The translations under genes and the position numbers were made by a program. From assembly GCF_019931145.1 (NCBI RefSeq), contig NZ_JAIOUV010000008.1, positions 62,001 to 126,000 of the forward strand: a stretch of DNA of 64,000 bases. The letters run 5' to 3'. Shown here piece after piece: positions 30,214 through 56,614 of the stretch (the stretch's first letter is position 1; every line of letters starts with the position of its first letter). The notes under the pieces are model-generated. The model ran no database searches and was not told where the DNA came from. It worked only from the letters and a program-made list of their open reading frames with translations. Source of the stretch: Marinicella meishanensis (GTDB lineage Bacteria > Pseudomonadota > Gammaproteobacteria > Xanthomonadales > Marinicellaceae).

Positions 30214-31788
30214 TCACGAACCCAACCCATTCTTGAAGATCAAATCATCTTCAAAAGGTTGTCTTTCAAAGGCCCCTGAATCGGGCAATGAATCCCGTGG
30301 CATGAAACGTTGATCTGTGGATGTGGCGTTGATCACCACGCCATTGTTCAAGGCCACACTGGTACTCTCAATCGCATGGGTTGGTGTGGGGCCGGCATGG
30401 TCAGCCAAGTTGGGGTCCAACAAGAAGACCGGTGACACATTGAACCGATCGTTCTGGCCAGCACCAATACCGCAGGTGTTTCGAGGCGATTCGATGTTAC
30501 CCCCCAACGATGACGTCAAGCTGGCATCAAGCACACATTGACCCTCCAGTAAACTATTGACCACCTCAAATTGGCTGTCATCTTCAAACCTCAAATCAAC
30601 CCCGTTGATGGCATGGTTGTCATAGGTGGTGACATGGCTCAGTTTCACTTGACTGAACTGGCTGACAATGGCCCCACCATTATTGGCTTGGTTGCCGCTG
30701 ATGGTCACATTCAATAAATCAACTTTTCCAGTAGAAACAAGGACAGCACCGGCATCGTCCTCAGCAGAGTTGGCAACCAATGCGGAGTGTTTCATGGTTA
30801 AACTGGGTTTGTATGGGGTGAGTCCAGCGGTCATCATCACAGCGCCGGCATTGGCGGTGTTGACGCCAGCCTGGTAGGCCGCCTTGTTGTCCACAAAAAT
30901 GGAGGCCATGACATGGGTGTCTATCGAACCATCTTGCCGCAATCCACCACCGAATTGGGCCTCATTATTTTGGATCAGACTGCGGGTTATCCACACATCG
31001 GCAGGGGTGTTTTCTGTGCCCGAAATGAACAAGCCACCCCCGCTGTATTCGGCGAAATTATTGAGGATGAACACACGGTCAAACAGCATGGTGGGCTGGT
31101 TGGCATGCGACAGGAAAGTGGCATGAACCGCACCGCCACTGGCCAATGCCTGATTCCCAATCAGATAGGTGTTGTACATCTTCAAAGAGCCACCAACCAT
31201 GGTGATGGCACCACCATCTGATAGCGATTCATTGTTATCCAAGACACTGTCAATAATGCTCAAATCACTCAATACAGCAAAAACACCACCACCACTTCTG
31301 GCTGTGTTTTCGGTCAAAGCCACTTGGTTGAGATTGACCGTGGCCATATTGGCCCGAATCACTCCACCCAAAGCCGTGTTGGCCAAGCCGTTTTTTACCA
31401 CCACTTGTTCCAAATAGAAAGAGACACCTTCATGCACCTCAAAAACCGTACCAGCCAGTTGTCCCGTAGTCAGCTCGGTCTTGGTTCCTGTTGGGCTGTT
31501 GGAGGTGAACAGGCCCTCGATCCGTAAATGATCCAACACATCCAGGTCCCCATTCATGGCCAAGTCCTCATCTGGCGACCCTGATCGATCAAGGTGGTAA
31601 ATCACATCATCCAGCTTGATGGTGTCTTCACCCGGGTTGTCATTCGCTGCGATGATGGCCTCTCGCAAAGAACAATCATTGACATGACAGCCATTGGGAA
31701 AGGGGTCATCATTGACGGTCACTTGGAAAGTGGCAGCCAAAGACCATACAGGCCATAACGCAATGAGCAAACCAACACAACACCTCAT
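30214..31788 (-). CDS. CSLREA-domain parallel beta-helix exoprotein (1)
   Basis: 524 aa with a signal peptide (VGLLIALWPVWSLA). The N-terminal CSLREA module is visible as FQVTVNDDP followed by NDCSLREAIIAANDNPG. A long right-handed beta-helix with repeated short rungs (SGGGVFAVLSDLSIIDS, SDGGAITMVGGSLKMYNT, YSGGGLFISG) follows. It ends with GNIESPRNTCGIG, a region common to these proteins, PDSGAFERQ and the tail DLIFKNGLGS, a variant of the IFxxGFE ending. Probably a surface or secreted protein of unknown target. The start ATG overlaps the upstream gene stop by 4 bp. Confidence 0.82.
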   Translation of the reverse strand: MRCCVGLLIALWPVWSLAATFQVTVNDDPFPNGCHVNDCSLREAIIAANDNPGEDTIKLDDVIYHLDRSGSPDEDLAMNGDLDVLDHLRIEGLFTSNSPTGTKTELTTGQLAGTVFEVHEGVSFYLEQVVVKNGLANTALGGVIRANMATVNLNQVALTENTARSGGGVFAVLSDLSIIDSVLDNNESLSDGGAITMVGGSLKMYNTYLIGNQALASGGAVHATFLSHANQPTMLFDRVFILNNFAEYSGGGLFISGTENTPADVWITRSLIQNNEAQFGGGLRQDGSIDTHVMASIFVDNKAAYQAGVNTANAGAVMMTAGLTPYKPSLTMKHSALVANSAEDDAGAVLVSTGKVDLLNVTISGNQANNGGAIVSQFSQVKLSHVTTYDNHAINGVDLRFEDDSQFEVVNSLLEGQCVLDASLTSSLGGNIESPRNTCGIGAGQNDRFNVSPVFLLDPNLADHAGPTPTHAIESTSVALNNGVVINATSTDQRFMPRDSLPDSGAFERQPFEDDLIFKNGLGS

Positions 31789-33368
31789 AAGCCCGCCTGA
31801 AAACCATTGAAATAGATTAAATCCATGCCGTTTGACTGCCACTCATATGCCCCGCTGTCTGGTTGATCACCCCTGATATAGTACCGTTGATCCAGCATGA
31901 GTTCAGGGATCATAACACCCCGATTGATTGCGTTGCTCAACGGGTTGGTGATGGCATAGGTCATCGTCGGTCCGCCATTGTCGGCCAATTCCGTGGCCAC
32001 CAACCCCCTTTGTAACCAACCAAACAAATCATTGGTCTCTGGGTCCAAACCACATGAATCTCCAGGTGACTCAATGTTGCCACCCAGCGAACTCACCTGA
32101 GATAAAAATGTGGTGGTACAGCGCGCCATGAGGATGTTGTTCTGCAACACCGCGGTCACTTTTGAGCCAAAAAAAATGTCTTCACCATTCTGTGATTGGT
32201 TGAACAGCACCGTGTTGTGCATCAACTCAACTTGACCTGCATTGAGGTATAAGGCTGCATATTCTGGGGCCTGATTCTCTCCAATGGTGCTGTTAAACAA
32301 CTTGATTTGATCACCGGAAAAGTACACCGCTGCAGCATGATCAGTTGATTCATTATTGAATATCAGAGAATGTTCCACATGCAATTTCGCCGCGCCACCA
32401 ACCGCATAGATGGCACCACCCGTTGCATCAAATGTAACCTGACTGTCGGTGGCCCGATTTTGCGTGATGGAGACTGCCGATAAGTACAATTTGCCGCTTT
32501 GGTGATGGATGCCTGCACCCTGTGCTGCGAGGTTGAATCTGATGCGGGTGTTTTGCACGTGTGCCGTTTGACTTCCTTGGTTGTTGGCAGAGCCGCCACG
32601 GAGAAATATTCCGCCACCAAACTGGGCCAAATTGTCACCCAAATAGCTGTCTTTGATGACGATGGCTGGTAGCTGGTTCTGGTCAATGAAGTTCACCACA
32701 GCTAAGGCCCCACCAAAATCAGCGATGTTGTCGGTAAATTCAGAGTCTTGGATTCTCAGCTGTCCTCCACTGGCGTATAAGCCGCCGCCAAAGCCGGCGA
32801 CGGTTGGGCTGTGATTTTCTCTGAATTTGACATGATTCAGATTCAATTGACTGTTGATGGCATAAATGCCACTGCCATTTCGGGCGGAGTTGTCAATCAA
32901 ATGTACATTTTCCAAATCCAGCCCAGCCTCAATAGAACGAATGCCGCCACCATTGGCCCCCAGGTTGTTGCCTTGTTGGATCAACACATGTTTCAGTGTC
33001 AGATTGACACCGGGGTGAACATCAAAAATGCGGTCGCTGAAACCACTGTGACCAACCAATGATGAAATTTCCAGGGGCACATTGGACACAAAGGTGCCAA
33101 TGATGGTCAAATCATCGGTGATGTCCAAATCACCCACCACAGCGGCATCATCATCACCATCACGGGTTAATTGATGTTCAGAAGGCAGCAGGATGATTTC
33201 ATCGGCACCGGGGTTGTTGTTGGCGGCCATCACCGCTTGTCTTAAACTGCAATCGAACTCAGAACAAACAGTGCTGACCGATGGATCGTTGAATCGGGTC
33301 ACTGTATAAGTGGCGGCATCCACTCCACTGGCCAGTATCCACAGAATCATGACAGCCATTTTATTCAT
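31785..33368 (-). CDS. CSLREA-domain parallel beta-helix exoprotein (2)
   Basis: 527 aa. A signal peptide (MAVMILWILASGVDA) leads into TYTVTRFNDPSVS and the variant motif FDCSLRQAVMAANNNPG. The helix rungs (GFGGGLYASGGQLRIQDS, DFGGALAVVNF, QFGGGIFLRGG) and the closing blocks SLGGNIESPGDSCGLD and LADNGGPTMTYAI match its neighbours. The C-terminus DLIYFNGFQAGL is a further IFxxGFE variant. It starts inside the end of the heparinase-like gene (8-bp overlap), so translation is coupled. Likely exported and perhaps processed at the tail. Substrate or partner unknown. Confidence 0.82.
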   Translation of the reverse strand: MNKMAVMILWILASGVDAATYTVTRFNDPSVSTVCSEFDCSLRQAVMAANNNPGADEIILLPSEHQLTRDGDDDAAVVGDLDITDDLTIIGTFVSNVPLEISSLVGHSGFSDRIFDVHPGVNLTLKHVLIQQGNNLGANGGGIRSIEAGLDLENVHLIDNSARNGSGIYAINSQLNLNHVKFRENHSPTVAGFGGGLYASGGQLRIQDSEFTDNIADFGGALAVVNFIDQNQLPAIVIKDSYLGDNLAQFGGGIFLRGGSANNQGSQTAHVQNTRIRFNLAAQGAGIHHQSGKLYLSAVSITQNRATDSQVTFDATGGAIYAVGGAAKLHVEHSLIFNNESTDHAAAVYFSGDQIKLFNSTIGENQAPEYAALYLNAGQVELMHNTVLFNQSQNGEDIFFGSKVTAVLQNNILMARCTTTFLSQVSSLGGNIESPGDSCGLDPETNDLFGWLQRGLVATELADNGGPTMTYAITNPLSNAINRGVMIPELMLDQRYYIRGDQPDSGAYEWQSNGMDLIYFNGFQAGL

Positions 33369-35499
33369 CACCACCGCCCTCAAAACCATCAACAAAAATG
33401 ACGCATTCAGGCGAAGCCCAGACGGGGCCGGAATCACCCACCACAATGCCTTGAGCGCATTGGGTGAAAGATTGTGTGATGCCGTTAATGCTGAGGTTGC
33501 CACCGGTTGACTGCATGCCTTTGTTCAACACCAAATTGTGGTCATTGCCCAATGACAAATGAAATTCAGCCGCTTCTTCAGTGAATTGAATGTTCAGTGG
33601 TTCCAAAGGTTGGTCACCCATTTGTAAAACATGCAAAAAATAACTCTGGGCCTGACCACTGCTGTCCAATTCCAGCCGATACTGCCCCACCGCGCCACCT
33701 TCGGTAATCAGCCGATAACTGGGGTTACTGGGAACCAACGTGGTCAGGTTGATTTGTTCATTGCCCATGATGGCAGAAACCTGGTTGCCATTGATCTGTG
33801 GTTGATTCAGGAAATGCATGATAAATCCCTTGGTCACTTCAGCGGCATTCAACACAGGATTATCTTCATCAAAAGGCGTCCAATTACAAGCACTGCCATC
33901 GGCGTAACTGATGGAATCTCCACTGGCTTCCAGGCGATCAAGAATCACCAATGCATTCAAGCCCCTGACATAAATAAAATCACGCACCACCGATTCGGCA
34001 TAAGGCCAATCATAGCGACACGGGTCGCGGTTCATCCTGGAGCGGTAAATGGCACTCAAATCAGTAGAAGCAAAGAAGAAATCTGGGTGGTGATGCACCC
34101 GGGTGACTTGCGGTAAGCCATCAGCACCTTCATCGTGCTCGGGATTGGGAGGATCGGGCAACACAAATTGATCCTCCCTGATGGGTGACCAAAACATTTG
34201 TCCCCGGCCTTCAAACAAGACCGTGTTGTGCCCGACAGCATTCAAAGCATCAACCGTGCTGGACCCGCCGCCCCAGTCCGTAATGTGTTCGGTGTAGGAG
34301 GTGGTTTCACGACTGAGCCACTGGCCATCTTGCCAAATCTGAAAGGAGCCAGCATCCAGGTGGTTATGGCCTACATTGCCACTGACCCCCAACTGCAGGT
34401 TAATGACTGTGGCATCTGGCTGCCAACGGTTTCTGAGATAAGAAAAGCCGGCACCAGAAGCATGATAATCCAAAGGAAGATCATCAAAGCTCCTGGATTC
34501 GACCGTTGGGGTAAGCGATTGCACCCAGGGTGAAATTTTGGGCTGAACTTGATCCAACCAGGTTTTGGCATAACCGGCCATCTGGCTTTGTGGCTGCATC
34601 ATGATGTGACTTGACATCACATTCCCATAATCAGCACTTTTGGCCGTTTCAGGATAACAAACAAAGAATTGTTCATCATCATTGAATGGAAACAAATACC
34701 AGTAAGAGTCATCGCAGCCGATGCCCATGGGGGCGGGTGTTTGTTTGGGCAGGGTCGCGTATATTTGGTAAAACAGGTTTTCTCGATAGAATGGAGTCGC
34801 ATCATAGGTGTTAAAACCATACTGCTGTGCCGTCAGTAAAGGCACCACACCGTAACCCAACATATATCGACCATACTGCGTACCCTCACCTGGCACGCCA
34901 CCCCGACCAAAATAAGGGGCCCATTGTTCAACCATGCCATGTTGAAAACGTTGGTCCAAAGCATGATCAATGAAGCCTTGGGCCATGGGATTTTCACCGT
35001 ATGAAGTGATGCCCCACTCCACACCGTTGCGCAAATAGCCCCAGAAATAGTTATTGGCTTCCATACCTGGCCCACCCCATGGTTTGTTGTTGAGCTCGGT
35101 TTGCCATAAATTCCAATTTTGGGTGAATGCATTTCTTTCAGCTGTGGAGAAACTGTCATGACACCAATCATAGATCAACAAGGCCGTTTCTCCGTACCAA
35201 CGCGCCGAGTCACTGGATATCTGACTGATGTCAATTTCAATCGACATGGCATGGTCTTTGGCTGAATCACAGTCGCTGGCATTTTCGGTCATCAAGCCCC
35301 TCAAGGCCAAGCCCAAGTAGTCGTCATTGGCGGGGTTGGTCGGGTTGTTTTGATACCATGTCCGTGCTTGGGCCAGTACGGCCTCAGAAGTGAACCACAA
35401 GCGTGGGTGGTCATTGGGTATGGTCAGGTCGGCTGCCAGCGACGATGTGCTGATCAAGCATACGAACATTCCGGTGATTACAATCTTAGATTTGCACAT
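33361..35499 (-). CDS. heparinase II/III-like exported protein
   Basis: 712 aa. The signal peptide (IVITGMFVCLISTSSLAA) precedes an alpha-barrel region (HPRLWFTSEAVLAQARTWY) and a C-terminal beta-sandwich region with NVGHNHLDAGSFQIWQDGQW, the typical heparinase/alginate-lyase site that holds the metal or catalytic His. It probably cleaves acidic polysaccharide outside the cell; the exact polymer is not predictable. It ends with CVIFVDGFEGGGDE, an IFxxGFE tail extended by a few residues. The ATG at 35499 has GGAG seven bases upstream; longer starts are less likely. It sits between a small exported protein and a CSLREA gene. Confidence 0.75.
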   Translation of the reverse strand: MCKSKIVITGMFVCLISTSSLAADLTIPNDHPRLWFTSEAVLAQARTWYQNNPTNPANDDYLGLALRGLMTENASDCDSAKDHAMSIEIDISQISSDSARWYGETALLIYDWCHDSFSTAERNAFTQNWNLWQTELNNKPWGGPGMEANNYFWGYLRNGVEWGITSYGENPMAQGFIDHALDQRFQHGMVEQWAPYFGRGGVPGEGTQYGRYMLGYGVVPLLTAQQYGFNTYDATPFYRENLFYQIYATLPKQTPAPMGIGCDDSYWYLFPFNDDEQFFVCYPETAKSADYGNVMSSHIMMQPQSQMAGYAKTWLDQVQPKISPWVQSLTPTVESRSFDDLPLDYHASGAGFSYLRNRWQPDATVINLQLGVSGNVGHNHLDAGSFQIWQDGQWLSRETTSYTEHITDWGGGSSTVDALNAVGHNTVLFEGRGQMFWSPIREDQFVLPDPPNPEHDEGADGLPQVTRVHHHPDFFFASTDLSAIYRSRMNRDPCRYDWPYAESVVRDFIYVRGLNALVILDRLEASGDSISYADGSACNWTPFDEDNPVLNAAEVTKGFIMHFLNQPQINGNQVSAIMGNEQINLTTLVPSNPSYRLITEGGAVGQYRLELDSSGQAQSYFLHVLQMGDQPLEPLNIQFTEEAAEFHLSLGNDHNLVLNKGMQSTGGNLSINGITQSFTQCAQGIVVGDSGPVWASPECVIFVDGFEGGGDE

Positions 35500-35513
35500 G
35501 ACCTGGCTCCAAA

Positions 35514-36020
35514 TCATTGATTCATTTGCACTTGGTGATCCAACTGGATGGAGAACCCCCACACCCGGTTTTCTGAGACCATTTCATCGTTAATCAATGT
35601 TGATTGCTGAGCTGACAATGGCTCTGTTGACTGCATGTCACCATTGATGTGGTTGCTGATGATCTCGCCATTGAAACTGACGTTACCCAAAACACCGCTG
35701 ATCATGGCAATGGTGTTTTCATGCCAACTCAATCTGACTTCGGAGATTTTTTGTGTTTGGGGTTCCATAACCACTTTAATTCCATACAAGTCATTGAAAT
35801 TAATGCCTGAGTTGATTTTATCTGGGTCTCGCTGCGATTCAGCCAACGGTTCCTGTAGGCAAAAAATCACCCAATCCATTTTTTCTGGTTTGAACCGATT
35901 GGTCTGTTCAAAGACCCAAATATGATTCAGTGAGTGCTCATCTCCTGCAACTGTTAATTGGCAAGCCCCGTTGGCTTGAATGGAGAGGAAGGTCATGGCG
36001 ATGATTGTGGCAGTTTTCAT
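35514..36020 (-). CDS. small exported hypothetical protein
   Basis: 168 aa with a short signal peptide (MKTATIIAMTFLSIQANGA) and a soluble domain with one cysteine pair (ACQLTV and WVIFCLQE). The middle part NSGINFNDLYGIKVVMEPQ and SEVRLSWHENTIAMISGVL appears beta-rich. I do not recognise the family, and it lacks the IFxxGFE ending of its neighbours. Only 14 bp separate it from the heparinase-like gene, so the two are likely expressed together and might act together. Confidence 0.7.
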   Translation of the reverse strand: MKTATIIAMTFLSIQANGACQLTVAGDEHSLNHIWVFEQTNRFKPEKMDWVIFCLQEPLAESQRDPDKINSGINFNDLYGIKVVMEPQTQKISEVRLSWHENTIAMISGVLGNVSFNGEIISNHINGDMQSTEPLSAQQSTLINDEMVSENRVWGFSIQLDHQVQMNQ

Positions 36021-36106: not shown

Positions 36107-37264
36107 TTATTTGGGCTCGAAGCGGCGACACCCCATGACCACCGGCGACAACCAGTGCTGCACCATCAATTCTGGCAACCAGTTCATTTTTTCAGCGCCA
36201 TAGCCACCGGCCAATACCACCACTGCACAGCCCATTCTGGGGTACCAAATAATCCTTTGACCACCGTTGCCCATGGCCGTGGTGACCGGCTGGATTTGGT
36301 CCATGACATGCATGGAGTTGGTCCACACTTGATAGCCATAACCGTGGTCCAGGACGAAATCCGGTGCCTCGCCATCTTGATAACTGACTTGGGTGTGGTT
36401 GACCGCAGCCAACCATTTTGACGGGATGATTTGAACCCCATCCCATTGGCCTTCATTCAGCACCAATCTGGCCATTTTTTGCAGGGCATCGGGTGATAAG
36501 CGTAAACCCGCATAGGCAGAAGGCCTGGCATTGCCTGTGGCCAACCATTGCCACCGCTTGATGCCTAATGGCTCAAACAACTTGGATTGCGCATATGATT
36601 CAATACCCAAACCGGTGACGTTTTCAAGCACCACCTTCAATAAATGGGTCATGCCACCATGGTAGTTGAATCGGCTGCCTGGCTCGCTGATCAACGGTTT
36701 TTGCAAGACAAACTCAGCTGGATCATGACTGACTGACATTTGGCGCTCATCATTCTCAGGATTGCTGTAGGGCAATGTCTCTTCATCCCATGCCAAACCG
36801 GCGGTCATGGTCAATACATGTCGCAGCGTGATTTGTTGTTTGCGACCTGACAGTTGTGGCACATATTGATTGGGGAGCAGCTGATGTAAGGGCTGATCAA
36901 CACCAACAATGTCCCTTTCTTCAATGGCCACCCCAACCAACCATGCAGTGATCGTTTTGCTGATCGAACGCACATCATGCAAGCGGTTTCTGTTAAATGA
37001 GACTGGGCCCAGAAATTCTCCCAGACGCCAATCATCACCAGTACAGTATCGTTCAAATTGAACGTTTTGTAGATTGACCACCAACACCGCATGAAAACCA
37101 GGCCAAGCCTCACAAAATCCATCATCCCATGAGTCTGACTGACCAATGGGTGTATGGCGTTTGTGTTGAGCACATCCCATCACCAACAAACTGCAACCCA
37201 GCAGCAAACAGTTAATTGAACAGCGAATTGATTCTGACTTGGCGTTTGAGTCACTCAAAGCCAT
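36107..37264 (-). CDS. beta-lactamase-fold serine hydrolase, lipoprotein
   Basis: 385 aa. A lipobox (SLLVMGC) near residue 31 indicates lipid anchoring. The class C beta-lactamase/esterase fold has the SxxK motif SISK in VRSISKTITAWLVG, whose serine is the nucleophile. The second motif is FNYHGGMTHLL, where Y-H-G replaces the common Y-x-N. GNGGQRIIWYP matches the third motif region. Such enzymes are esterases or D,D-peptidases. ATG at 37264 starts within the end of the CSLREA gene (14-bp overlap); TTG two codons earlier is less likely. No IFxxGFE tail is present. Confidence 0.82.
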   Translation of the reverse strand: MALSDSNAKSESIRCSINCLLLGCSLLVMGCAQHKRHTPIGQSDSWDDGFCEAWPGFHAVLVVNLQNVQFERYCTGDDWRLGEFLGPVSFNRNRLHDVRSISKTITAWLVGVAIEERDIVGVDQPLHQLLPNQYVPQLSGRKQQITLRHVLTMTAGLAWDEETLPYSNPENDERQMSVSHDPAEFVLQKPLISEPGSRFNYHGGMTHLLKVVLENVTGLGIESYAQSKLFEPLGIKRWQWLATGNARPSAYAGLRLSPDALQKMARLVLNEGQWDGVQIIPSKWLAAVNHTQVSYQDGEAPDFVLDHGYGYQVWTNSMHVMDQIQPVTTAMGNGGQRIIWYPRMGCAVVVLAGGYGAEKMNWLPELMVQHWLSPVVMGCRRFEPK

Positions 37265-38831
37265 CTTCAAAAATCAAATGAAATTCATTTTCCTGCGCTT
37301 CCAGAGCACCTGAATCGGGTTCGGCATCGCGGCTGTACAGGCGTTGGTCATGGGTGATTCCAGCTATGGGTATGGCATTGCCCACCGCTGGGCTGTACCG
37401 GTATCGGATGGCATGGGTCCAAGATTGTCCCCCGTTGTCAGCCAATTCTTCTTCTATCAATGCGCGGGAGAAAACATTCACTTGATCGTTGGGTGCTGAG
37501 CCCAATCCACAGGAGTCACCAGGTGACTCGATGTTACCACCCAGTGAGCCAAAGCCAACAAAGCTGACGGTCTGACAGCGTCCACTGATGATTGAATTTT
37601 GTACCGTACCCGCGGTGCCAGGACCGATGTAAATGTCCACCTCATTGGCAGAGAGGTTGGCTGCTGCGGTGACGTGCAGCAACCTCAAATTGCCTTCTGT
37701 GGCGTTGATGGCCGCGAATACATTGGCTTCGTTGCTGCTGATGGTGGTGTTGTTGATTGATGCCCGGTCTGCCACATACAACCCGCCACCAGACCCATCG
37801 GCTCGATTGTAAAACACCGCAGAATCGGTGACACTCAGATCGGCATGATCGCCCGACTGAAACGGGATACCTGTGTAAATACCCCCTCCATGACTGTCCC
37901 CGGTGGGCTGATCAGCTTCGGCTAAGTTGAAGTAAACCATTGACCCTTCGATATCTAACCGCGTGTCAAAATGGAAAATACCACCCCCTCTGGATTGGGC
38001 CTGGTTGCTCCAAAAGTTGGTATTTTGCACCAAGATCCAACCTGCAGTCTGGCCTAACTGGCTCCATGCCCACAGGCCACCACCTTCATTCGCTCGGTTA
38101 CCAACCACACTGCTGTTGATGATGTGCACATTGGGTTGGCCATTCAAACTATACAAGTAAGCGGTTGCCAGGCCACCACCGAAACTGGCATGATTCAGAG
38201 ACAGGATGACTTGATCCAGCAACACCGTGCTGTCGACAATGAGCAGGCCACCACCATCGTCATCCGCTTGGTTAGCAGATATCGTACTTGAGCGGATGAC
38301 GGCATCGCTTTGATACAACAGGATGCCACCACCACTGTTGGCTTGGTTACTGACAATGTCACTGTTTTCAATCCGCAAAATGGCACCATTGGCCTTGATG
38401 CCGCCACCATCGCTGTTGGTTTGCCCATCAGAGAGGATTGCATGGTTCAAGGTCAAAGCAGCGCCCGGGTGTAGATCAAAAATCCGATCACCCATGTCAC
38501 CAATGATCTCAAACTGATTGGCGGATGACGGTGTGTCACTGGTGATGGTCACCACACCCAATACATCCAGGTCTCCCACCATGGAATCGTTGTCGGCACC
38601 GGTCAGGGTCAACTCGTAGGCTTCATCCGGTAACACAATCACATCAGGTCCGTTGGAGGCATTGCTCGCGATGATGGCTTCGCGCAGCGAACAGCTGTTT
38701 GTGGTGCAATTTTGGGGGACGGGATCAGCGGTGTGCGTCACGGTGAAAGTATCGGCCTTGGCATCCATGGCAGCTGCCAAGAACAACAAAAAAATGAAGC
38801 AAGAACAGTACAGGAAATTGATGTTCATCAT
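37251..38831 (-). CDS. CSLREA-domain parallel beta-helix exoprotein (3)
   Basis: 526 aa. The signal peptide (YCSCFIFLLFLAAAMDAKA) precedes FTVTHTADPVP and NSCSLREAIIASNAS. Rungs such as NSGGGILLYQSDAVIRSS, DDGGGLLIVDSTVLLDQ and GSGGGLYVADRASINNT form the beta-helix, and SLGGNIESPGDSCGLG plus DNGGQSWTHAI close it. The C-terminus FHLIFEDGFE is the cleanest copy of the IFxxGFE tail and is the extreme end of the protein. GGAGG precedes a double ATG (38831 and 38828); either may be used. It begins 13 bp after the propeller-like gene. Confidence 0.83.
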   Translation of the reverse strand: MMNINFLYCSCFIFLLFLAAAMDAKADTFTVTHTADPVPQNCTTNSCSLREAIIASNASNGPDVIVLPDEAYELTLTGADNDSMVGDLDVLGVVTITSDTPSSANQFEIIGDMGDRIFDLHPGAALTLNHAILSDGQTNSDGGGIKANGAILRIENSDIVSNQANSGGGILLYQSDAVIRSSTISANQADDDGGGLLIVDSTVLLDQVILSLNHASFGGGLATAYLYSLNGQPNVHIINSSVVGNRANEGGGLWAWSQLGQTAGWILVQNTNFWSNQAQSRGGGIFHFDTRLDIEGSMVYFNLAEADQPTGDSHGGGIYTGIPFQSGDHADLSVTDSAVFYNRADGSGGGLYVADRASINNTTISSNEANVFAAINATEGNLRLLHVTAAANLSANEVDIYIGPGTAGTVQNSIISGRCQTVSFVGFGSLGGNIESPGDSCGLGSAPNDQVNVFSRALIEEELADNGGQSWTHAIRYRYSPAVGNAIPIAGITHDQRLYSRDAEPDSGALEAQENEFHLIFEDGFE

Positions 38832-38844
38832 GATGACCTCCAAA

Positions 38845-40254
38845 TCACTCAAGGCCATCTGCGAATATGGGCACTTCGGCCAATTTTTGCGCATGTACGC
38901 CAAACTCACCGATGGCCCCGCCGTTGACGTCATCCGTACCATTCCAAAGCACCAAGATTTCCCCCCGGGCATCCACCGCCAAGGCCGACGTTCTGGCATC
39001 AAATTGTGAACCATCATCGCCCATGTCCGAAACCACGCTTGAGCGCAACAAAGGTTCACCTGACTCGGTCACCCGATGCACCCAGATTTCATACTCATCG
39101 CTGGTTGGACCGCCGCCTTGGTAGGTGATGGCATCTCCTTGCCAACTCACCGCGTATTCTCGGGTCACTGGATTGTGAACCACATCAGGGCGAAACGCCT
39201 GATAATCTCCATTACCGGTGCCGCCCATGGTTGAAACCCTGAAATCAGTGAGGTCTTGACCACCCGCTGTGAGCAACCGGCCGTGAATTTCAAATTCTTC
39301 ATCAATCAAACCTTGGTTGTTGTCATCACCGTACCAAACAACCATCCAATCGCCATTGATGGTGTTCGGTGCAACCGCCGGCATTTGTGCATCATATTCG
39401 ATCAGTCCGGTGCCGCCCATGAATGAAACTCGAAAATCATTGTTTCCCACTTCAGTACCAACTGAGTCCAAGATTTGCCCAAAAATTTCAAACTCTTGGT
39501 CCACTTGACCGGCCAAGTTATCATCGGCAACCCAGACCACCAGGTATTCGGCATTGGCACTGTTGAAAGCCACATCCACTTGAGAGGCCATCCTGTCAGC
39601 ATCGCCGGTGCCGGCCACATCAGAGATGCGGAAGTCGTTGTCGCCGATCTCGCTGCCATCACCATTGAGCCGTTGGCCAAAAATTTCAAACTCGTCATCC
39701 GCCAAACCGGCTGCTGGGTCATCTGCATACCAAACCACCAAATATTCATCATTGAGGTCATTGAATGCCACTGCCGGACTTCTGGCCCCTCTGGATGGCA
39801 ATTGATTGATGTCAGAAATTGGCAATTCAGGCCCCAATAGGGTCAGGTTTGGAGACACCCGCCTCGCATAAATCTCAAAATCATTGCCAAACCACACCAC
39901 CAAAAACTCATTGCGGATGGAATTGAAAGCCACTTTGGGTTCAAACGCCGTCAAATTATCATTGACTGGAATGTCCGAAATAACCACTTGGTTACCCAAC
40001 GGCATGCCGTCGGCCCTGAGTAGACGGGCAAAAATTTCAAATCCCGCCGGGTCTGAGTTTTCGGCCCACACAGCCAGGAACGTGTCGTTGTTGGGGTTGT
40101 GTGCCAGGGCCGGATCATCGGCATCGATGTTGGGATCATCCACGGTGCCTGCCACTTGGCTGACCAGCATGTCATTGCTGCCAATTTCTATCAGATCTGC
40201 CTGTGAAGTGGCGACCATTGATGACAGGCTTACCAACAACAAGACCGTTTTCAT
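38845..40254 (-). CDS. exported seven-repeat protein, probable beta-propeller
   Basis: 469 aa with signal peptide (TVLLLVSLSSMVATSQA). About seven repeats of 45-60 residues follow, each with a strand such as VAFNDLNDEYLVVWYADD, a loop, EFEIFGQRL and a DFRISD-like strand; the middle repeats also carry VAGTGD or MGGTG. Seven such four-stranded repeats suggest a seven-bladed propeller closed by the last, incomplete repeat. It ends in VPIFADGLE, a variant of the IFxxGFE tail. Probably a secreted binding protein; no catalytic motif is seen. The ATG at 40254 gives the best signal peptide. Confidence 0.78.
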   Translation of the reverse strand: MKTVLLLVSLSSMVATSQADLIEIGSNDMLVSQVAGTVDDPNIDADDPALAHNPNNDTFLAVWAENSDPAGFEIFARLLRADGMPLGNQVVISDIPVNDNLTAFEPKVAFNSIRNEFLVVWFGNDFEIYARRVSPNLTLLGPELPISDINQLPSRGARSPAVAFNDLNDEYLVVWYADDPAAGLADDEFEIFGQRLNGDGSEIGDNDFRISDVAGTGDADRMASQVDVAFNSANAEYLVVWVADDNLAGQVDQEFEIFGQILDSVGTEVGNNDFRVSFMGGTGLIEYDAQMPAVAPNTINGDWMVVWYGDDNNQGLIDEEFEIHGRLLTAGGQDLTDFRVSTMGGTGNGDYQAFRPDVVHNPVTREYAVSWQGDAITYQGGGPTSDEYEIWVHRVTESGEPLLRSSVVSDMGDDGSQFDARTSALAVDARGEILVLWNGTDDVNGGAIGEFGVHAQKLAEVPIFADGLE

Positions 40255-40362
40255 GAAACCAGAATCTTTAACTGAAAAAAACATACAAAACCTATTAATT
40301 GTGGAGACAATCAGGTAGATGCTTCAATCAGGACAACCGAACATTTATTCAGCAAGAAAGGA

Positions 40363-42152: not shown

Positions 42153-44231
42153 TCATTCCAAATTATCGGGGCGTATTGTGCCCACATCAGACCAGTTTGC
42201 TCCGGACTGCAACAACTCAATTTGGGTCAATATTTTACGTCGATAGCCTTTGCTGTCATCGATCAGATTCAAGGCATTTTGATAGGCGGCGATTGCAAGT
42301 GACCGTTTTTTTGTTTTCACATAAGCATTACCCAAATCCACGAAAGTATCGAAATGGATGTCAATCATGTTTACCACTTGTTCGAGTCGCAACGCCACTT
42401 TCTCCCATTCAGGCTCATCGGTTTCCATGATGTACTTTCTCACTTCGTAGCGCATCAAACGTGCCCAGTCCATGGGATCAACATAACGGCCTTTCATGAT
42501 GTAAACATTGCCAATCCGATCCACATAGTCCAGCATGTTCAATTGGCTTGGATCCCAGCCATCCCAAGGCAACAAATCACTGGTTTTCATGAAGAAATAG
42601 CCTTCAAAAATCCCTTCATAATTATCATCATCAATGCCACTCAGTTTTTCTGAGAAGGGTATCCCTCGGGCTTCCAATTCCTCTTTGATCAACCAAATAT
42701 AGTTGAAACGATTGTGCTGCATGAGGTCATTGGATTGGATGAAATCCTCAATTTCTTTCACCCGTTGTCCCAGGTCCAAACCTTCGCTGGCAAAATATTG
42801 GTAGGCATTTTCAGTGCCACCTGCGGTTTCATTGTGGTATTCCCATAAGCGGCTTTCGCGAGCAGTCATCAGTGCCGTTGCCAAGATGAACAACACCGCT
42901 AATCTGGATAACAGCGGCTGCCAGTGATGCGTCACAATGACACCACAGAACACCACAATGACCACCACCAATGGCAAAGCATGCCTGATACCGGCATACG
43001 TGCCAGCAGAATTCATCAGGGTCAATAGGTAGGCCGCAGCCATGAACAGCAGAATCAACAGCGGTTGATGGGTGCGATGAATGGACTGAGGTGGTGATTT
43101 GTTCCATCTGTTGAATGAACGAACCAACACCACCACAACGCACATCAACAACATAAACAGATATGGGATGGGCAGTTTTGCCATGATATTGGCTGGCCAA
43201 AAGAACCAGGGCGGGTCACCGGTGTACTTGTGACCATACACGAAATGCATGGAGCGCCCACGGCCCTCAATGCCCGCTTTGATGGTGTCAGCCAAACCCC
43301 AGACATAGGCTTTGGGCAACAGGCGGCTTTGATCGATCGCAAGCAACAACGATTGCATGCTTGGATTACTCAGGTCATCGATTTTGGCCGTCAATGAACG
43401 GTTGAAAGGATCACCACCATCGGGGCTGGCGTGGTATTGAAAACCATAGCTGGCCCAGAGTAACAGGATCGAGAGCACACCCACCAGCACAGTGGCTCCC
43501 AATCGCTTGAGCGCTGGCTGGTGTCGTTTTTGTGCCAAGGACTTGAGGGCCAAGAACACCAAAACCAAATAAATCGCCAACACCCCTGGCAGGGCCGAAA
43601 ATTTGGTGCTCAAGGCAACACCGGTGGCCAATGCCAATGCCAAGCCCCAATGCCAACGCCATTGTCGGGCAAACCCTGTGGCCGTCAAAGCATTGATGGC
43701 CAAAGCCAATGACACCGGCAAATCGGTCATGACCAGCGGCATGTGGGCGGCCATGGTCGGCTCAAAAACCATCAACAAACCCACCACAATGGCCGCTGTG
43801 AAGCGCCACAAGTGCCAAACCAACAGCAGCAATACTGCCATCAACAATCCATTGAATAACCACATGGCCAATCGGGCCGATTGTTGGGCTTGTGCAAAAT
43901 CATTGTCAAAAAACATGGTTTCTTCGAGGTGGTTGCGCTCGGCATACTTGTCATTCAAAGGCTCAAAAGCCCGCAATGAAAAATCATCGGGTGCCAGCCA
44001 CCCCACCCACAGCTTTGACAAAGGAGGGTGTTCGGGGTTGAGTCGAAAATCACCGGTCTGCACATAACTGATGCCAGCAACCATGTGGAACGGCTCATCC
44101 ACAGTGAATGAGTCCAGTCGCGTGCCGTACCAAGAGCGCAGCACCGCCAACAACACAATGAAGCACAACAGCCCAACTTTAAGCACGGTCATTTTCATAC
44201 CAGCATCCGTGGCTTGCCTTGTATCTGTCAT
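42153..44231 (-). CDS. GT39-like membrane glycosyltransferase with C-terminal repeat tail
   Basis: 692 aa with around ten membrane helices. The first periplasmic loop contains SFTVDEPFHMVAG, the acidic motif of GT39/ArnT-type enzymes that use polyprenyl-phosphate sugars, followed by LNPEHPPLSKLW. Helices continue to about residue 455; the rest is soluble and ends in a TPR-like pair of helices (DTFVDLGNAYVKTKKRSLA). Such enzymes glycosylate proteins or lipids in the periplasm. Here the exported proteins encoded next to it are natural candidates for substrates, which is inference. It overlaps the LRR gene by 4 bp. Confidence 0.78.
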   Translation of the reverse strand: MTDTRQATDAGMKMTVLKVGLLCFIVLLAVLRSWYGTRLDSFTVDEPFHMVAGISYVQTGDFRLNPEHPPLSKLWVGWLAPDDFSLRAFEPLNDKYAERNHLEETMFFDNDFAQAQQSARLAMWLFNGLLMAVLLLLVWHLWRFTAAIVVGLLMVFEPTMAAHMPLVMTDLPVSLALAINALTATGFARQWRWHWGLALALATGVALSTKFSALPGVLAIYLVLVFLALKSLAQKRHQPALKRLGATVLVGVLSILLLWASYGFQYHASPDGGDPFNRSLTAKIDDLSNPSMQSLLLAIDQSRLLPKAYVWGLADTIKAGIEGRGRSMHFVYGHKYTGDPPWFFWPANIMAKLPIPYLFMLLMCVVVVLVRSFNRWNKSPPQSIHRTHQPLLILLFMAAAYLLTLMNSAGTYAGIRHALPLVVVIVVFCGVIVTHHWQPLLSRLAVLFILATALMTARESRLWEYHNETAGGTENAYQYFASEGLDLGQRVKEIEDFIQSNDLMQHNRFNYIWLIKEELEARGIPFSEKLSGIDDDNYEGIFEGYFFMKTSDLLPWDGWDPSQLNMLDYVDRIGNVYIMKGRYVDPMDWARLMRYEVRKYIMETDEPEWEKVALRLEQVVNMIDIHFDTFVDLGNAYVKTKKRSLAIAAYQNALNLIDDSKGYRRKILTQIELLQSGANWSDVGTIRPDNLE

Positions 44232-45088
44232 GGTATGCCCCCATTGATTGCTTCAAATCCATTACTGAATATAACATCATTTTGTTGCTGACCCGTGAGG
44301 GTCAATGACAAACCATCAAACCATGACTGCAAGGACGCTGGTATCAATGCATTACCCTCTTCATCAGCCGCCAAATAATTTTCTCTGATGATCAGTTCAT
44401 CCAAAGCAGTGAGGTTGATGAATTCATCGGGTAAGGTTCCGGTCAACCGATTGGTGGAAAGATTCAAATACTCTAAATTGGCCAGCTGACCCAACGTGCC
44501 AGGAATTTCACCTTCCAGGGCGTTGTTACTCAGATCCATGTATTCAAGATTGGATAAGTTACCCAGTGAATCTGGAATGGGTCCATTCAAAAAATCGTTG
44601 CCGGTGAATCTGAGGTAAGTAAGGTCAGACCACTGACCCGCAGAATTTGGGATCGGGCCGACCAGTTGACTGCCAACCACATCAAAAAACATCAATTGCG
44701 TCAGTTGGCCCAGTTCACTTGGAAAAATTCCGGTGATCTCAAATGCTTTGAATCCAAAAACAAAGCTTTCCAGTTCTGTGAGGTCACCCAACTCAGATGG
44801 CAGCGGCCCGCTGTAACCGTCTATGGTTGAAAAGTCGATAATCCGCACATGTCCGTTCATGGCGGAAATGCCAGCCCAGTCATCCACCGGCGGTACACCC
44901 CAGTTTTGATTGTTACTCCAACCGTCGCCTTGACCGGCATTGTAAAAGGCCACCAACGCTTCGCACTCAATGACCGGCACACCAAGCCCAGACTGTGTAC
45001 ACACGGTGGTTTCGTTCAATTGTGCCATGGCACCGCCACACAAAAACAACCCCGATAAAAACACCCGCCAATAAAAAATTGTTTGCAT
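44228..45088 (-). CDS. exported leucine-rich-repeat protein with IFxxGFE tail
   Basis: 286 aa with a signal peptide (FYWRVFLSGLFLCGGAMA). A cap with two cysteines (VCTQSG, IECEALVAFYNAGQGDGWSN) leads into about six leucine-rich repeats of the plant-like type: GPIPDSLGNLSNLEYMDLSN, GEIPGTLGQLANLEYLNLST, GTLPDEFINLTALDELI. It ends with DVIFSNGFEAINGGIP, the tail extended by seven residues. Probably a secreted or surface recognition protein. ATG at 45088 follows GGAGG by 4 nt. It is the first gene of the exoprotein run, 115 bp downstream of the kinase gene. Confidence 0.82.
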   Translation of the reverse strand: MQTIFYWRVFLSGLFLCGGAMAQLNETTVCTQSGLGVPVIECEALVAFYNAGQGDGWSNNQNWGVPPVDDWAGISAMNGHVRIIDFSTIDGYSGPLPSELGDLTELESFVFGFKAFEITGIFPSELGQLTQLMFFDVVGSQLVGPIPNSAGQWSDLTYLRFTGNDFLNGPIPDSLGNLSNLEYMDLSNNALEGEIPGTLGQLANLEYLNLSTNRLTGTLPDEFINLTALDELIIRENYLAADEEGNALIPASLQSWFDGLSLTLTGQQQNDVIFSNGFEAINGGIP

Positions 45089-45202
45089 ACCACCTCCCAC
45101 TTGATCATGATTGTTCTGGTTAGGTTGATCGAACCCAAGTTCTGATCCAGATTCAAACCCAATTCAATTCAGTGGATGCAAGTGTGTGGCAAAAGCGAAT
45201 AT

Positions 45203-47611: not shown

Positions 47612-47712
47612 GCCGTTTGAGATATTGTTGGGGTCTGAGAATCTGGATTTGGGTGGGTCATGTCGATGGATGCGACTTTCCCAAAAACCGAACAAAAAAG
47701 TTCAATCAGACA

Positions 47713-48273
47713 TCAATCCTCATGGTCTTTGGCCATGATCTTGGCCAGTTTGTTCACTGCCCGCTTGAAATAAACCCGTGCCGCATCCGGGCTTTTGCGG
47801 TCGGTCAGCTCGGCTATTTCTTGGTGCGACATACCAAATTCCAAACGCATGATGACCACATGCTTTTCAGCTTCACTGAGTTGATCAATGGCCGCATCAT
47901 AAGCCATCATGGCATGAAGGTCTTCTTCATAAGCCATGCGTTCATCATGGGTGAATTGTGTGGTAAGGGCCACTTGGAACAACTTGTTTTTGCGCAGCTC
48001 TTGTTTGACCTGGTTCAAAAAAATCTGCCGCAGGTAACAAAAAAAGGCACCGGGGTTGTCCGCCTTCAATTGGTCGTGATTTTTAAAAGCCAAGGCCAAG
48101 GTGTCTTGTACCAAATCCCGGGTTTCCAGGTGGTTGCGTGCGTGATGCGGGACCCTGCCATGCGCCCATTTCAACAGAATTGGGCCAAACATGTCCATCA
48201 GTCCATTGCTGGCAGTCGAATGCCCTGCTTTGAACCCATCAATCAAACGCATGGTTGTGGACAATGGATGCAT
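47713..48273 (-). CDS. ECF-type sigma factor paired with a Ser/Thr kinase
   Basis: 186 aa. Region 2: NHLETRDLVQDTLALAFKNH and GAFFCYLRQIFLNQVKQELR. Region 4: LSEAEKHVVIMRLEFGMSHQ and a helix-turn-helix ending RVYFKRAVNKLAKIM. It has no adjacent anti-sigma gene; its neighbour is the transmembrane kinase, so control by phosphorylation is likely. The ATG at 48273 follows AGGG by 6 nt. Its targets are unknown but the 15-kb exoprotein run starts right after the kinase gene and is the obvious candidate. Confidence 0.88.
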   Translation of the reverse strand: MHPLSTTMRLIDGFKAGHSTASNGLMDMFGPILLKWAHGRVPHHARNHLETRDLVQDTLALAFKNHDQLKADNPGAFFCYLRQIFLNQVKQELRKNKLFQVALTTQFTHDERMAYEEDLHAMMAYDAAIDQLSEAEKHVVIMRLEFGMSHQEIAELTDRKSPDAARVYFKRAVNKLAKIMAKDHED

Positions 48274-48354
48274 GATCTGCCCTAACAAAGAGGAAAATTC
48301 GTTTCAGTTTAAAGCTTTTCCAGCCTGAATTGGGATTATTTTTATCGACTGATT

Positions 48355-53709: not shown

Positions 53710-53758
53710 GGCCAGTCAAGCGTGAACCCCGGTGATCTGAAGACCATGGGGTTGTGTG

Positions 53759-53764
53759 TATAAT
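53759..53764 (+). promoter_or_regulatory. -10-like element directly upstream of the amidase gene
   Basis: TATAAT, six bases (GCTGAC), then ATG at 53771. No Shine-Dalgarno. A -35 match at 17 bp is poor. Confidence 0.5.
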
Positions 53765-53770
53765 GCTGAC

Positions 53771-56614
53771 ATGAAGCCGAATCATCCAGCCGCATTCATT
53801 GGGTCATGCATTTGCGCATGCTGCTTGCTGTGGGCCACACCGGCGACGGTCCAGGCCCAAATCATTGCCCAACAAGGCCAATTTTCAGACCATCCAGAGA
53901 CCAACCAGGCCTCTGCGACTTTGCTTGAACAAACCCAAATGCTGTTGGAAAACCACGGCCTTCGCGACCAATCTGACTTGCTGCCCGCCGGCACCCGGGT
54001 CACCGCGGCCGCCTTGCTTGGTGAGGACCTGATCATCACCTTGGCCCCACCCAAAAACTGGCTCGATGAGGGCTTGAATGAAGCCACTTTGGACCAATTG
54101 AGTCGCTTGTTGGATTTGAATTTGGATTGGCTGGCACCAACGGCCAGCCGGATACACCTCAATGTGTGGCATGGCGGCCAAAAAGTGGCCTTGTCTAACT
54201 TCCTCAACATCCAGCCGGTGCCCAACAAACCCGACGACACCAGCATCAGAGTACACTCAAGCGGCACCGCCACTGACCTCAGTGACAAAACCCTGTTCAT
54301 TTCGCAAGCCCATGGTTGGATCGATTATGACGATTTTCGCCAATGGTCGACCCAGCGCGGCATCACCCACGACATTGTCGAGGATTTTGTCAACGCCGAA
54401 GGCATCAACCAGTATTTGTTGCAGTACCTGGCTGGGGCTGGCGCCGAGGTGTTCACTTTGCGTGAACGCGACCTCAACACCCAAATGGTCATCGTCGATG
54501 ACGCCGATGGCAACAGTTTCCCAGCCAATGGCAGCTACCAAGAAATCGGTGACGCCAGTTGGTTCAGCGACAGCGGCGCCAATGGTTTTGCCAATTTTCA
54601 GGCACCATACAGCGCCAGCAATGACCCCTTCCGCGACAACGGTGGCAGCGACCGCCTGATCACCACCAACCCGACTGAAACGGCCCAAGCGGTGTGGACA
54701 CCGGTGATCACCGAGTCTGGCCATTATGACGTGTACGTGTCCTATTCAGGCATCGGTAACCGGCCCCATGACGCCCGCTACACCGTCAGACATGGCGGCC
54801 TTGAATCCACCGTGCTGGTGGACCAAACCAAGCACCGCTATGTGTGGAATCACCTGGGCAATTTTTATTTCACCGCCGGTGGTGATCATGCCATCCGCTT
54901 GAGCAATCAATCGGCTGCAGCCGGCACCACCGTATCGGCCGATGCCGTGCGCATTGGTGGTGGGATGGGTGACATCCTGGGCCAATACCACACGGTGCTC
55001 AGTGGCCACCCACGCTGGGAAGAAGGGGCCCGCACCTGGACCCAGTACCAGGGCGCCAGCGCTTCGGTGTATGCCGGAGGTGATGTCTCGGCCCGGTCAC
55101 GCTTTGCCGACTGGGAGCACTACTCGAGCGAAGATTCGGTGTATGTCTCCTGGCATTCAAATGCCGCCACCGGCAATGCCCGAGGCACCAGTTCCTACAT
55201 CTATTCAGCCAATCCACCCGATGGCACCTATGACACCACCCAAGCCCACCCCGGCTCGGCAGAACTGCAAACCGCCATCCATGAGGAGTTGATCAATGAC
55301 ATCAGGGGCGCTTGGGACAGCAATTGGACCGACCGCGGCAAACGTTCGGCCTACTTTGGGGAGGTCAATCCCTCACACAACGACGAAATGCCCGCGGTGT
55401 TGTTGGAAATGGCCTTCCATGACAACGCCCAAGACGCCGATGCCTTGCGCCACCCACAATTCAGACGCCTCGCGGCCCGGGCCATCTATCAAGGCATTGT
55501 GAAATACTTTGCCACCCGCGATGGCCTGTCATACACCTTGTTACCGGAACCGCCCACCCACTTGCAGGTCACCTCAACCACCCCCGGTGAATTGACCATC
55601 GACTGGCAGGCAGCGGCCACCGACAACCAGGATCTGGGCGGTGATGCGGCCGATGATTTTCTGGTGTTCTTGTCGACCGATGGCAAAAATTTTGCGCCAG
55701 GCATCCCGGCAGCCAGCAACGGTTTACAGCTGACCGGCATGCCGCCGGGCCAGGTGCAGTATGTCCAAGTCAAAGCCCGCAATGCCGGTGGCGTGTCGTT
55801 ACCGACCGAGACTTTGGCGGCACGGGTGGCCCATGCCAACGAATCCAGGGTGTTGGTGGTCAATGGCTTTGATCGCTTGAATTCGGGCCAATTAATCTAT
55901 CAAAACATGCCGGACATCGGTGGGTTTGTCGATCGCATGTACCTCAGCCAGATGAACACCTTTGATTACATCATCCAACACGGTGAGGCCATCGATGAAT
56001 CGGGTGTCGGCTTTGATGGCATCAGCAACGAACTGATTGAAGACGCCCTGTGGGCGTTGAACCCCACCGAACACGCCGCCGTGTTTTGGATCCTGGGCGA
56101 AGAGTCCAGCCTCGGCGAAACCCTCAATGCCAGTGAACAATTGGCCTTAAACAATTACCTGTCAGCCGGCGGTAAACTGTTCATCAGTGGTGCTGAAATC
56201 GCCTGGGATTTGGATTTCTTGGGCAATGCAGCCGATCAAGATTTTTACCACAACACCCTGAAAACGACCTACAGCGCCGATGACGCCAACACCTTCACGG
56301 CTGACGGCTTACCAGGCTCCCCCTTTGCCCACCTCAGCAACCTGTTGTTTGATGACGGCACCGGGCCCACTTATCGGGTTGAGTTTCCAGATGTCATCAG
56401 TCCGATCAATGGCAGCAGTGCCTGTCTTGAATATTTGGGTCAGCAAACCGCTTGTACTTACGTTGACACCGGGACCTACCAAGTCATTCATCTGGGCTTT
56501 CCCTTTGAGACCATCGTCGCCGCAGCGGGCCGCCATGACTTGATGGCTGCCGCCTTGGATTATTTTGCCGTGCCCCATTTCAGTGACCTGATTTTTGCCT
56601 CTGCTTTTGAATGA
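53771..56614 (+). CDS. exported N-acetylmuramoyl-L-alanine amidase with inserted golvesin-like domain and IFxxGFE-like tail
   Basis: 947 aa. A signal peptide (CCLLWATPATVQAQ) and a 160-residue unassigned N-terminal part precede an Amidase_3 domain split in two. Its first half is TLFISQAHGWIDYDDF. A golvesin/xanthan-lyase-like module (GDASWFSDSGANGFANFQ to TVSADAVRIGGG, about 260-400) is inserted. Its second half is VYVSWHSNAATGNARG and VLLEMAFHDNAQDADAL, which contain the other zinc and catalytic residues. A fibronectin type III-like domain, a flavodoxin-like or glutaminase-like tail and the end DLIFASAFE follow. Probably a secreted cell-wall hydrolase. The in-frame ATG at 53756 would lie upstream of the TATAAT box. 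Confidence 0.82.
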   Translation: MKPNHPAAFIGSCICACCLLWATPATVQAQIIAQQGQFSDHPETNQASATLLEQTQMLLENHGLRDQSDLLPAGTRVTAAALLGEDLIITLAPPKNWLDEGLNEATLDQLSRLLDLNLDWLAPTASRIHLNVWHGGQKVALSNFLNIQPVPNKPDDTSIRVHSSGTATDLSDKTLFISQAHGWIDYDDFRQWSTQRGITHDIVEDFVNAEGINQYLLQYLAGAGAEVFTLRERDLNTQMVIVDDADGNSFPANGSYQEIGDASWFSDSGANGFANFQAPYSASNDPFRDNGGSDRLITTNPTETAQAVWTPVITESGHYDVYVSYSGIGNRPHDARYTVRHGGLESTVLVDQTKHRYVWNHLGNFYFTAGGDHAIRLSNQSAAAGTTVSADAVRIGGGMGDILGQYHTVLSGHPRWEEGARTWTQYQGASASVYAGGDVSARSRFADWEHYSSEDSVYVSWHSNAATGNARGTSSYIYSANPPDGTYDTTQAHPGSAELQTAIHEELINDIRGAWDSNWTDRGKRSAYFGEVNPSHNDEMPAVLLEMAFHDNAQDADALRHPQFRRLAARAIYQGIVKYFATRDGLSYTLLPEPPTHLQVTSTTPGELTIDWQAAATDNQDLGGDAADDFLVFLSTDGKNFAPGIPAASNGLQLTGMPPGQVQYVQVKARNAGGVSLPTETLAARVAHANESRVLVVNGFDRLNSGQLIYQNMPDIGGFVDRMYLSQMNTFDYIIQHGEAIDESGVGFDGISNELIEDALWALNPTEHAAVFWILGEESSLGETLNASEQLALNNYLSAGGKLFISGAEIAWDLDFLGNAADQDFYHNTLKTTYSADDANTFTADGLPGSPFAHLSNLLFDDGTGPTYRVEFPDVISPINGSSACLEYLGQQTACTYVDTGTYQVIHLGFPFETIVAAAGRHDLMAAALDYFAVPHFSDLIFASAFE

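Follow-up and report, generated by a model that had tools for sequence, protein, structure and literature searches.

A short C-terminal tail of exported Marinicella proteins and its co-occurrence with a second type II secretion system

Why should exported proteins of differing architecture end in the same few residues? The question is raised by seven ORFs in the window, a 64,000-nucleotide stretch of Marinicella meishanensis DNA, whose products close with the motif IFx[DN]GFE or a variant of it:

30217..30246, minus strand: DLIFKNGLGS tail of the choice_anch_Q protein 30214-31842; variant motif
31788..31823, minus strand: DLIYFNGFQAGL tail of the choice_anch_Q protein 31785-33503; variant motif
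33364..33405, minus strand: CVIFVDGFEGGGDE tail of the weakly heparin-lyase-like protein 33361-35562; strict motif
37254..37280, minus strand: HLIFEDGFE tail of the choice_anch_Q protein 37251-39059 (likely start 38831); strict motif
38848..38874, minus strand: VPIFADGLE tail of the exported protein 38845-40284, no family found; variant motif
44231..44278, minus strand: DVIFSNGFEAINGGIP tail of the LRR protein 44228-45100; strict motif
56585..56611, plus strand: DLIFASAFE tail of the Golvesin_C/Amidase_3 protein 53756-56614

All seven strings were found at the ORF ends where the initial annotation had placed them. Several of the listed ORFs begin too far upstream; judged by eye from internal start codons, all seven proteins have signal-peptide-like N-termini, as had been claimed. 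The description of their folds as unrelated stood in part: several architectures are indeed present, but the proteins at 30214, 31785 and 37251 share the NCBIfam family choice_anch_Q. Because these three are one family, the seven amount to about five architectures: choice_anch_Q, LRR, Amidase_3 with Golvesin_C, a weakly heparin-lyase-like protein and one protein without a family. The LRR and amidase assignments were borne out by Pfam (LRR; Golvesin_C/Amidase_3). The heparinase-like character of the 33361 protein is visible as a heparin-lyase resemblance in NCBIfam but falls below the curated cut-off, and family scans did not confirm a propeller among the seven, the 38845 protein having no family match. 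Choice-of-anchor domains owe their name to the differing anchors that they precede in different bacteria. The structure model of the LRR protein is poor (mean pLDDT 48.5), and in the AlphaFold model of the 37251 beta-helix residues 504-526, tail included, have pLDDT <50, as does most of 376-526. Beside a sigma-factor-like ORF and tailed genes, the window also holds a large kinase-like ORF with repeats (45203-48288), recognized by eye.

The initial annotation had supposed that the genome may hold many more such tails. In the 3,989,142-base genome that contains the window, the strict pattern IFx[DN]GFE, searched at the DNA level, matched 13 times and its reversed control never; with one mismatch allowed, 184 matches were obtained against 22 in the reversed control, a net 162 for the whole genome. 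Of the 13 strict matches, ten stand 0-7 residues ahead of a stop codon, two immediately follow a signal peptide and one is located between domains. Genes were sampled from the first 400 kb of contig C7, chosen for its length with matches already in view and thus not a blind draw, and scored with a matrix of nine positions derived from 151 tails of other genomes. A score of at least 5 was reached by 16 of the 323 complete ORF-called genes, about 5% of those sampled, the next gene scoring -0.5. This density agrees with the genome-wide net count and bears out the expectation, at about 160 copies per genome. The same test applied to 400 kb of G001, a tail-less genome of the same family, found 0/438 genes tailed.

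The sample also speaks to where the tail occurs. At score 6 it was present at 15/323 C-termini as against 1/4002 internal 25-residue windows; at score 4, the counts were 16 C-termini and 8 internal windows. The tail is therefore concentrated at C-termini and does not occur at random positions. By heuristic class, tails fell on 14 of 110 exported, 0/67 membrane and 2/146 cytoplasmic genes, so that they lie mostly on exported proteins; one of the two “cytoplasmic” genes has a visible signal peptide and the other is a 125-aa ORF with an unclear start.

Chance as the origin of the tail is ruled out by the reversed controls and by the C-terminal versus internal scores. A DNA-level repeat element is likewise ruled out, the 13 strict matches all differing in DNA sequence, with variation at synonymous positions, and so is common descent of the whole tailed proteins, whose domains differ.

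A motif pattern search used to survey carriers returned at least 120 stretches, 80 of them with names. Among the matches listed, carriers come from Marinicella, Dokdonella, Pseudofulvimonas and Lysobacterales MAGs, as well as from MAGs filed under other names, e.g. Alcanivoracaceae and Sedimenticola. Of the motif matches read in these loci, at least 157 in number, 151 lay no more than 20 residues from a stop and 6 in other places; for 123 of the 151, the search pattern itself dictates the terminal position. The tail has the nine-residue consensus D-[LVI]-I-F-x-[DN]-G-F-E, or variants of it. Position by position, the 151 tails have D in 143, [LVI] in 137, I in 147, F in 151, any residue, [ND] in 147, G in 145, F in 151 and E in 142 or D in 7; the set overstates conservation, because 123 exact matches of the search pattern lie in its loci. 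In tails of the Marinicella genome itself D, S, N or A can also take the G position, and D is frequent as the final residue. The 151 C-termini stop with the motif or shortly after it; up to 7 residues may follow the motif, or 9-13 in the long form described below. By eye, none of them (at least two belonging to chance short ORFs) has a hydrophobic helix plus basic residues, and the tails offer neither a Cys nor a Gly motif by which they could be anchored covalently. The carriers include choice_anch_Q-like proteins and, by eye, proteins with FG-GAP-like repeats or endonuclease-I-like C-termini. A signal peptide without TM segment was called in 66/88 tailed versus 109/392 untailed genes of the same set from the named loci, genes and signal peptides being called by simple scripts. 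One tailed protein (L081:2769-4163) has by eye a Tat-like signal, DRRQFLRT, which fits a folded-protein route across the outer membrane.

Conservation was examined with the window amidase, which has matches at E<=1e-30 in 7/91 genomes, its own included. The protein and its six relatives (44-72% identity to the window protein, three families) all end in the tail; their linkers differ. The seven tails are SDLIFASAFE, SDVIFANSFD, SDVIFEDGFE, DDLIFEDGFEN, TTLFSDSFE, KPIFQDRFEDGALISP and EAIFADRFE, the last two from genus g12. The tail is thus kept at the C-terminus in every homologue found, the conservation that the initial annotation had asked for.

Genus g12 has a dialect of its own, IFxDRFE, with few G-type and many R/S-type matches (1 vs 44 in G065; 1 vs 27 in G117); 400 kb of G065 contained three R-type C-termini among 286 genes. 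Such dialects suggest a tag reader that would change with the genus, drift being the alternative. Tandem tails occur, e.g. DLIFSNGFESDIIFKNGFE, and two tags stand 9-12 residues apart at one C-terminus in G002:C55:5876-5923, G005:C2:363493-363543, L082, L098 and L144. Tags also lie directly behind the signal peptide, in L034 (G000:C12:99598) and L043 (G000:C15:68315), both in the Marinicella genome, and in L102 and L224; one such N-terminal copy precedes what we take to be a G8-like domain, and one is doubled. Because these copies exist, obligatory C-terminal cleavage is disfavoured. A long form, GFESGDT, is present in 7/200 genomes. Six of its eight loci have it at the C-terminus (L225, L226, L228-L231); in L227 it is internal, and in L224 it comes after a tag at the N-terminus. 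In one of these loci (L224-L231) the long form, xFxDGFESGDTSxW, opens by eye a jelly-roll-like region, and the short tag may be related to the first strand of that region.

The C-termini agree with the initial annotation in setting the tail apart from PEP-CTERM and T9SS tails by the absence of a hydrophobic helix or basic cluster. Like the PEP-CTERM, GlyGly-CTERM and MYXO-CTERM signals, it stands at the C-termini of exported proteins whose domains are unrelated; the helix and basic residues of those signals are missing. NCBIfam sorting models did not match three composite tail peptides at E<=10, very short queries being a weak test, and at E<=1 NCBIfam had no match at the tail of the seven window proteins. 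With PEP-CTERM/exosortase, the tail has in common a short C-terminal signature on many exported proteins that is open to phylogenetic profiling, but it is without the PEP motif, helix and Arg cluster. The T9SS C-terminal domain serves as an address for outer-membrane translocation on many folds and is a folded unit of about 70-100 residues; the tail would share the role of a C-terminal address but has only 9 residues, and the two are set apart on anatomy alone. The FxDxF linear motifs of endocytic adaptors, eukaryotic and cytosolic, have the F-x-D-x-F core in common with the tail, by analogy only. A literature search, with subscription papers mostly outside its reach, found no paper on the tail among the matches listed, in which the literal strings matched unrelated papers. 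The GlyGly-CTERM/rhombosortase system (PMC13393428) resembles the tail in being C-terminal, portable, found on exported proteins of many folds and linked to type II secretion (T2SS), but it differs in its Gly/Ser motif, membrane helix, basic residues and rhomboid cleavage. The tail, unlike GlyGly-CTERM, also occurs N-terminally.

The choice_anch_Q proteins allow the two kinds of ending to be compared on one family. The family was found in 24/78 genomes, mostly picked as tail-less or from other orders, and its ends were read in 30 loci. GlyGly-CTERM-like or similar helix-plus-basic ends follow the domain in L260, L261, L264, L278 and L281, while L256 and L259 have nothing after it. An R-type tail closes the protein in L267 and L279 (g12), and L275 (G031, family f1) closes with the variant RIYKDDFDH. 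The remaining loci have other ends, open ends or a wrong (antisense) ORF. As far as sequences can tell, the tail occupies the position where other bacteria have GlyGly-CTERM-like anchors.

The tail is patchy within the order. In the Marinicella family (f1), 31/33 genomes are tail-positive; across the order, a G-type match was found in 117/299 genomes and an R/S-type match in 99/299, strongly by genus, single matches per genome being possibly due to chance. We read 29 of 46 low-copy places in 30 genomes: the 7 from families f2 and f12 are chance matches (internal or antisense), and 13 of the 22 from f8 and f9 are C-terminal tails. The two highest strict counts of the 299 genomes, 136 and 108, belong to G278 and G280 (family f12, genus g54). 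A general gammaproteobacterial feature was rejected: in a class-wide set of 274 genomes, three of them from the same order, none of the 271 from other orders had more than 3 matches, the reversed-control level.

The initial annotation had proposed correlating the tail with a processing or secretion gene. Partner profiling, which covered the GspD family, yielded as candidate partner a second T2SS belonging to a distinct clade. The search for GspD (TIGR02517) covered 44 genomes, of which 26 are tail-positive (23 with G-type and 3 with R-type tails), two, G031 and G038, have variant tails and 16 are tail-less. An over-cut-off GspD was present in 26/26 tail-positive genomes tested. A tree of 72 full-length secretins from 42 genomes, partial matches (about 200 bits and less, mostly PilQ-like) being left out, has two deep clades, each with an SH-aLRT of 100 by a quick method. 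Clade A contains one secretin from each of the 26/26 tail-positive and 2/2 variant-tail genomes, and the 26 tailed genomes carry secretins of both clades. Thirteen of the 16 tail-less genomes have clade B only; G229 has an odd long-branch A-like copy, and two are without a full GspD (no match in G001, partial matches only in G033).

Clade A loci have the order gspC-D-E, often with F; homologs of the Marinicella GspC, GspE and GspF were found in 27/29, 28/29 and 20/29 of them, and GspC homologs in 0/15 loci of tail-less genomes. The clade A GspC (GspC-A; alignment of 28) has an HR domain (PF11356) and a C-terminal PDZ domain in 4/4 proteins scanned, its nearest solved chains being OutC, a GspC, PulC and EpsC. 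PDZ and HR profiles built from 27 GspC-A sequences expectedly match 28/29 clade A loci, with the miss at a contig end; near clade B secretins, the PDZ profile matched in 0/43 cases and the HR profile in 2/43. A lipobox-like stretch was seen in 1/29 clade A and 33/43 clade B secretins. The gene before gspD in a tail-less locus had no Pfam match. With no PDZ match and frequent lipobox-like stretches, clade B resembles Xps; XpsC (formerly XpsN) of Xanthomonas is described as combining HR with a helix-only 2P region in place of PDZ (PMC11981180). In G000, G003, G004 and G006, all of the Marinicella family, the start of a tailed gene lies 7.8-7.9 kb downstream from that of gspD-A; around T2SS loci as a whole tailed genes are not enriched (6/418 genes, one doubtful, in tail-positive and 0/222 in tail-less genomes). 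Downstream of the clade A gspD of the Marinicella genome, L327:16282-18093 encodes a tailed 595-aa protein without Pfam or NCBIfam match, homologs of which occur in 5/29 clade A loci, all of family f1.

The pairing was followed across the order with a 21-row GspC-A profile from which the PDZ part was left out, run on the 299 genomes and joined with the tail counts. At least 3 tails were found in 102/116 genomes with GspC-A (E<=1e-15) versus 15/183 without, both cut-offs being set after seeing the data; the counts were 110/116 vs 43/183 at one tail or more and 91/116 vs 10/183 at five or more. Fisher's test at three tails gives p 4e-47, a value that ignores kinship. The association holds within the two families of mixed state: genomes with and without GspC-A have at least 3 tails in 10/12 vs 0/64 cases in f12 and in 2/2 vs 0/76 in f2. 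The corresponding figures are 29/30 vs 2/3 in f1 and 33/38 vs 5/5 in f9. Family f8 breaks the pattern (2/6 vs 6/33): six genomes have tails without GspC-A, four have GspC-A with <3 tails and two have both, some f8 matches being due to chance. Outside f8, nine tailed genomes gave no GspC-A match (011, 012, 075, 084, 172, 180, 188, 208, 228), eight of them at most 90% complete and G012 94%. GspC-A is present without tails in G229 and G256, and with <3 strict matches in five f9 genomes, G031, G038 and G048. Weaker GspC matches (1e-15 to 1e-4) occur in eleven tail-poor genomes of f2 and f12; a divergent GspC may be missed, because at most 12 candidates per genome were scored.

Kinship was addressed on a clade B tree of 41 rows, G001, G033 and G229 having no clade B secretin and two of the three G097 copies being left out. 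Tail and clade A change 3 times each on this tree, and 3/3 independent pairs agree (sign test p 0.25, as low as three pairs allow). Counting the variant-tail genomes among the tail-less ones gives 5 pairs, 3 agreeing and 2 without difference. Because the independent joint changes number only three, common descent or lifestyle could also give the pattern.

C-terminal place, exported carriers, several architectures and conservation all support an unnamed sorting, processing or anchoring signal, as the initial annotation had read it from sequence. From the pairing, we infer that the tagged proteins are substrates of clade A, with the tag as their signal. That the tail is a portable recruitment tag for this dedicated second T2SS, and not for the Xps-like one, is the reading that we favour, though we hold it at even balance. 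Tagged proteins would cross to the periplasm by Sec (at least one having a Tat-like signal) and would fold there, exposing a flexible D-[LVI]-I-F-x-[DN]-G-F-E end. The clade A T2SS (GspC-D-E, often with F nearby) would recognize the tag outside the cytoplasm, and the folded protein would pass the clade A secretin to the surface or the medium. Against this reading stand the family f8, which does not follow, the lack of tailed-gene enrichment near T2SS loci, and the small number of joint changes.

As for the reader of the tag, we conjecture that it is the PDZ domain of GspC-A. This domain would be the likeliest candidate, possibly together with secretin N-domains, and would add the tag as a beta-strand. 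Published work offers parallels in part: the EpsC PDZ domain is reported to be needed for VesB secretion and to capture a VesB-derived module (PMC12369372), and a 9-residue loop of PelI is described as a T2SS signal interacting with GspC and GspD (PMC7949064). These cases have in common with the tail a GspC PDZ domain as candidate reader and, in PelI, an element of nine residues; however, the PelI and Pel3 loops and the VesB Ig-fold are, in these accounts, parts of a folded domain, whereas the tail is a terminal linear tag on unrelated proteins (PMC7949064, PMC12369372). A canonical C-terminal PDZ ligand has a free carboxylate on a hydrophobic last residue, and the motif usually ends in E or D. 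Canonical binding also needs a free C-terminus, yet residues may trail the motif and a few tags are N-terminal; the tag could still bind as an internal strand. Furthermore, the T2SS signals known so far are, as presented in PMC7949064, structural and composite. The full proposal, a linear, transferable T2SS signal of nine residues that one of the two Lysobacterales T2SSs reads through the GspC PDZ domain on up to about a hundred substrates per genome, is accordingly put forward tentatively, and we would sooner expect some part of it to fail.

The main rival has the tail act after secretion, as a surface retention tag: the proteins would leave by signals of their own folds, through clade A or either T2SS, and the tail would then bind a surface receptor. 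Recruitment and retention alike pair the tail with clade A. Retention is favoured by the tail taking the place of GlyGly-CTERM-like ends on choice_anch_Q proteins of other gammaproteobacteria, and GlyGly-CTERM itself is reported to require a separate T2SS signal (PMC13393428). For Wenzhouxiangella AB-CW3, moreover, the medium is reported to have yielded no proteolytic activity, and anchoring to the outer membrane is assumed by the authors (PMC7691419). On the other hand, the tail has by eye neither a hydrophobic helix nor a Cys or Gly motif for covalent anchoring, and what it co-occurs with is the PDZ-bearing system and not T2SS at large. We regard retention as doubtful, though a serious contender. 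A further reading invokes no contact between the two at all: tags and clade A would both be ancestral in the order and would both be lost wherever a large environmental secretome was given up, the tag having some other partner. That clade A follows host families fits this account, as do the scarcity of independent joint changes, the tails without GspC-A in f8 and the lack of tailed-gene enrichment around T2SS loci; near-complete agreement in the 44 genomes and within f2 and f12 tells against it, as does the retention of a clade B T2SS by most tail-less genomes tested. Such a shared fate seems to us rather improbable.

In the last alternative, T2SS is secondary and the tail would be acted on by an enzyme that processes or modifies C-termini, either sortase-like or catalysing F-x-D cross-linking. 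The near-invariance of the F positions (151/151 each) and of the last acidic residue (149/151), in a set drawn with the strict pattern, would suit an enzyme, but the N-terminal, internal and tandem copies would not, nor would the R, S or D found at the G position in dialects and variants. This possibility we consider very slight.

The choice of folded substrates by T2SS has long been a puzzle, the signals studied being, according to PMC7949064, structural and different for each protein. If the tail is the address label of the second machine, it may be the kind of signal long sought for this route. If a common linear tag does go with a matching second T2SS, the question becomes testable directly, with one peptide, one PDZ domain and one knockout; T2SS substrates would become predictable from sequence, and folded proteins could be sent out of Gram-negative cells by means of the tag. 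Should the tail be a surface anchor instead, it would be a C-terminal sorting signal that works without a membrane helix, on about one in twenty of the genes sampled. On either reading, a location is suggested for many proteins that are now without one.
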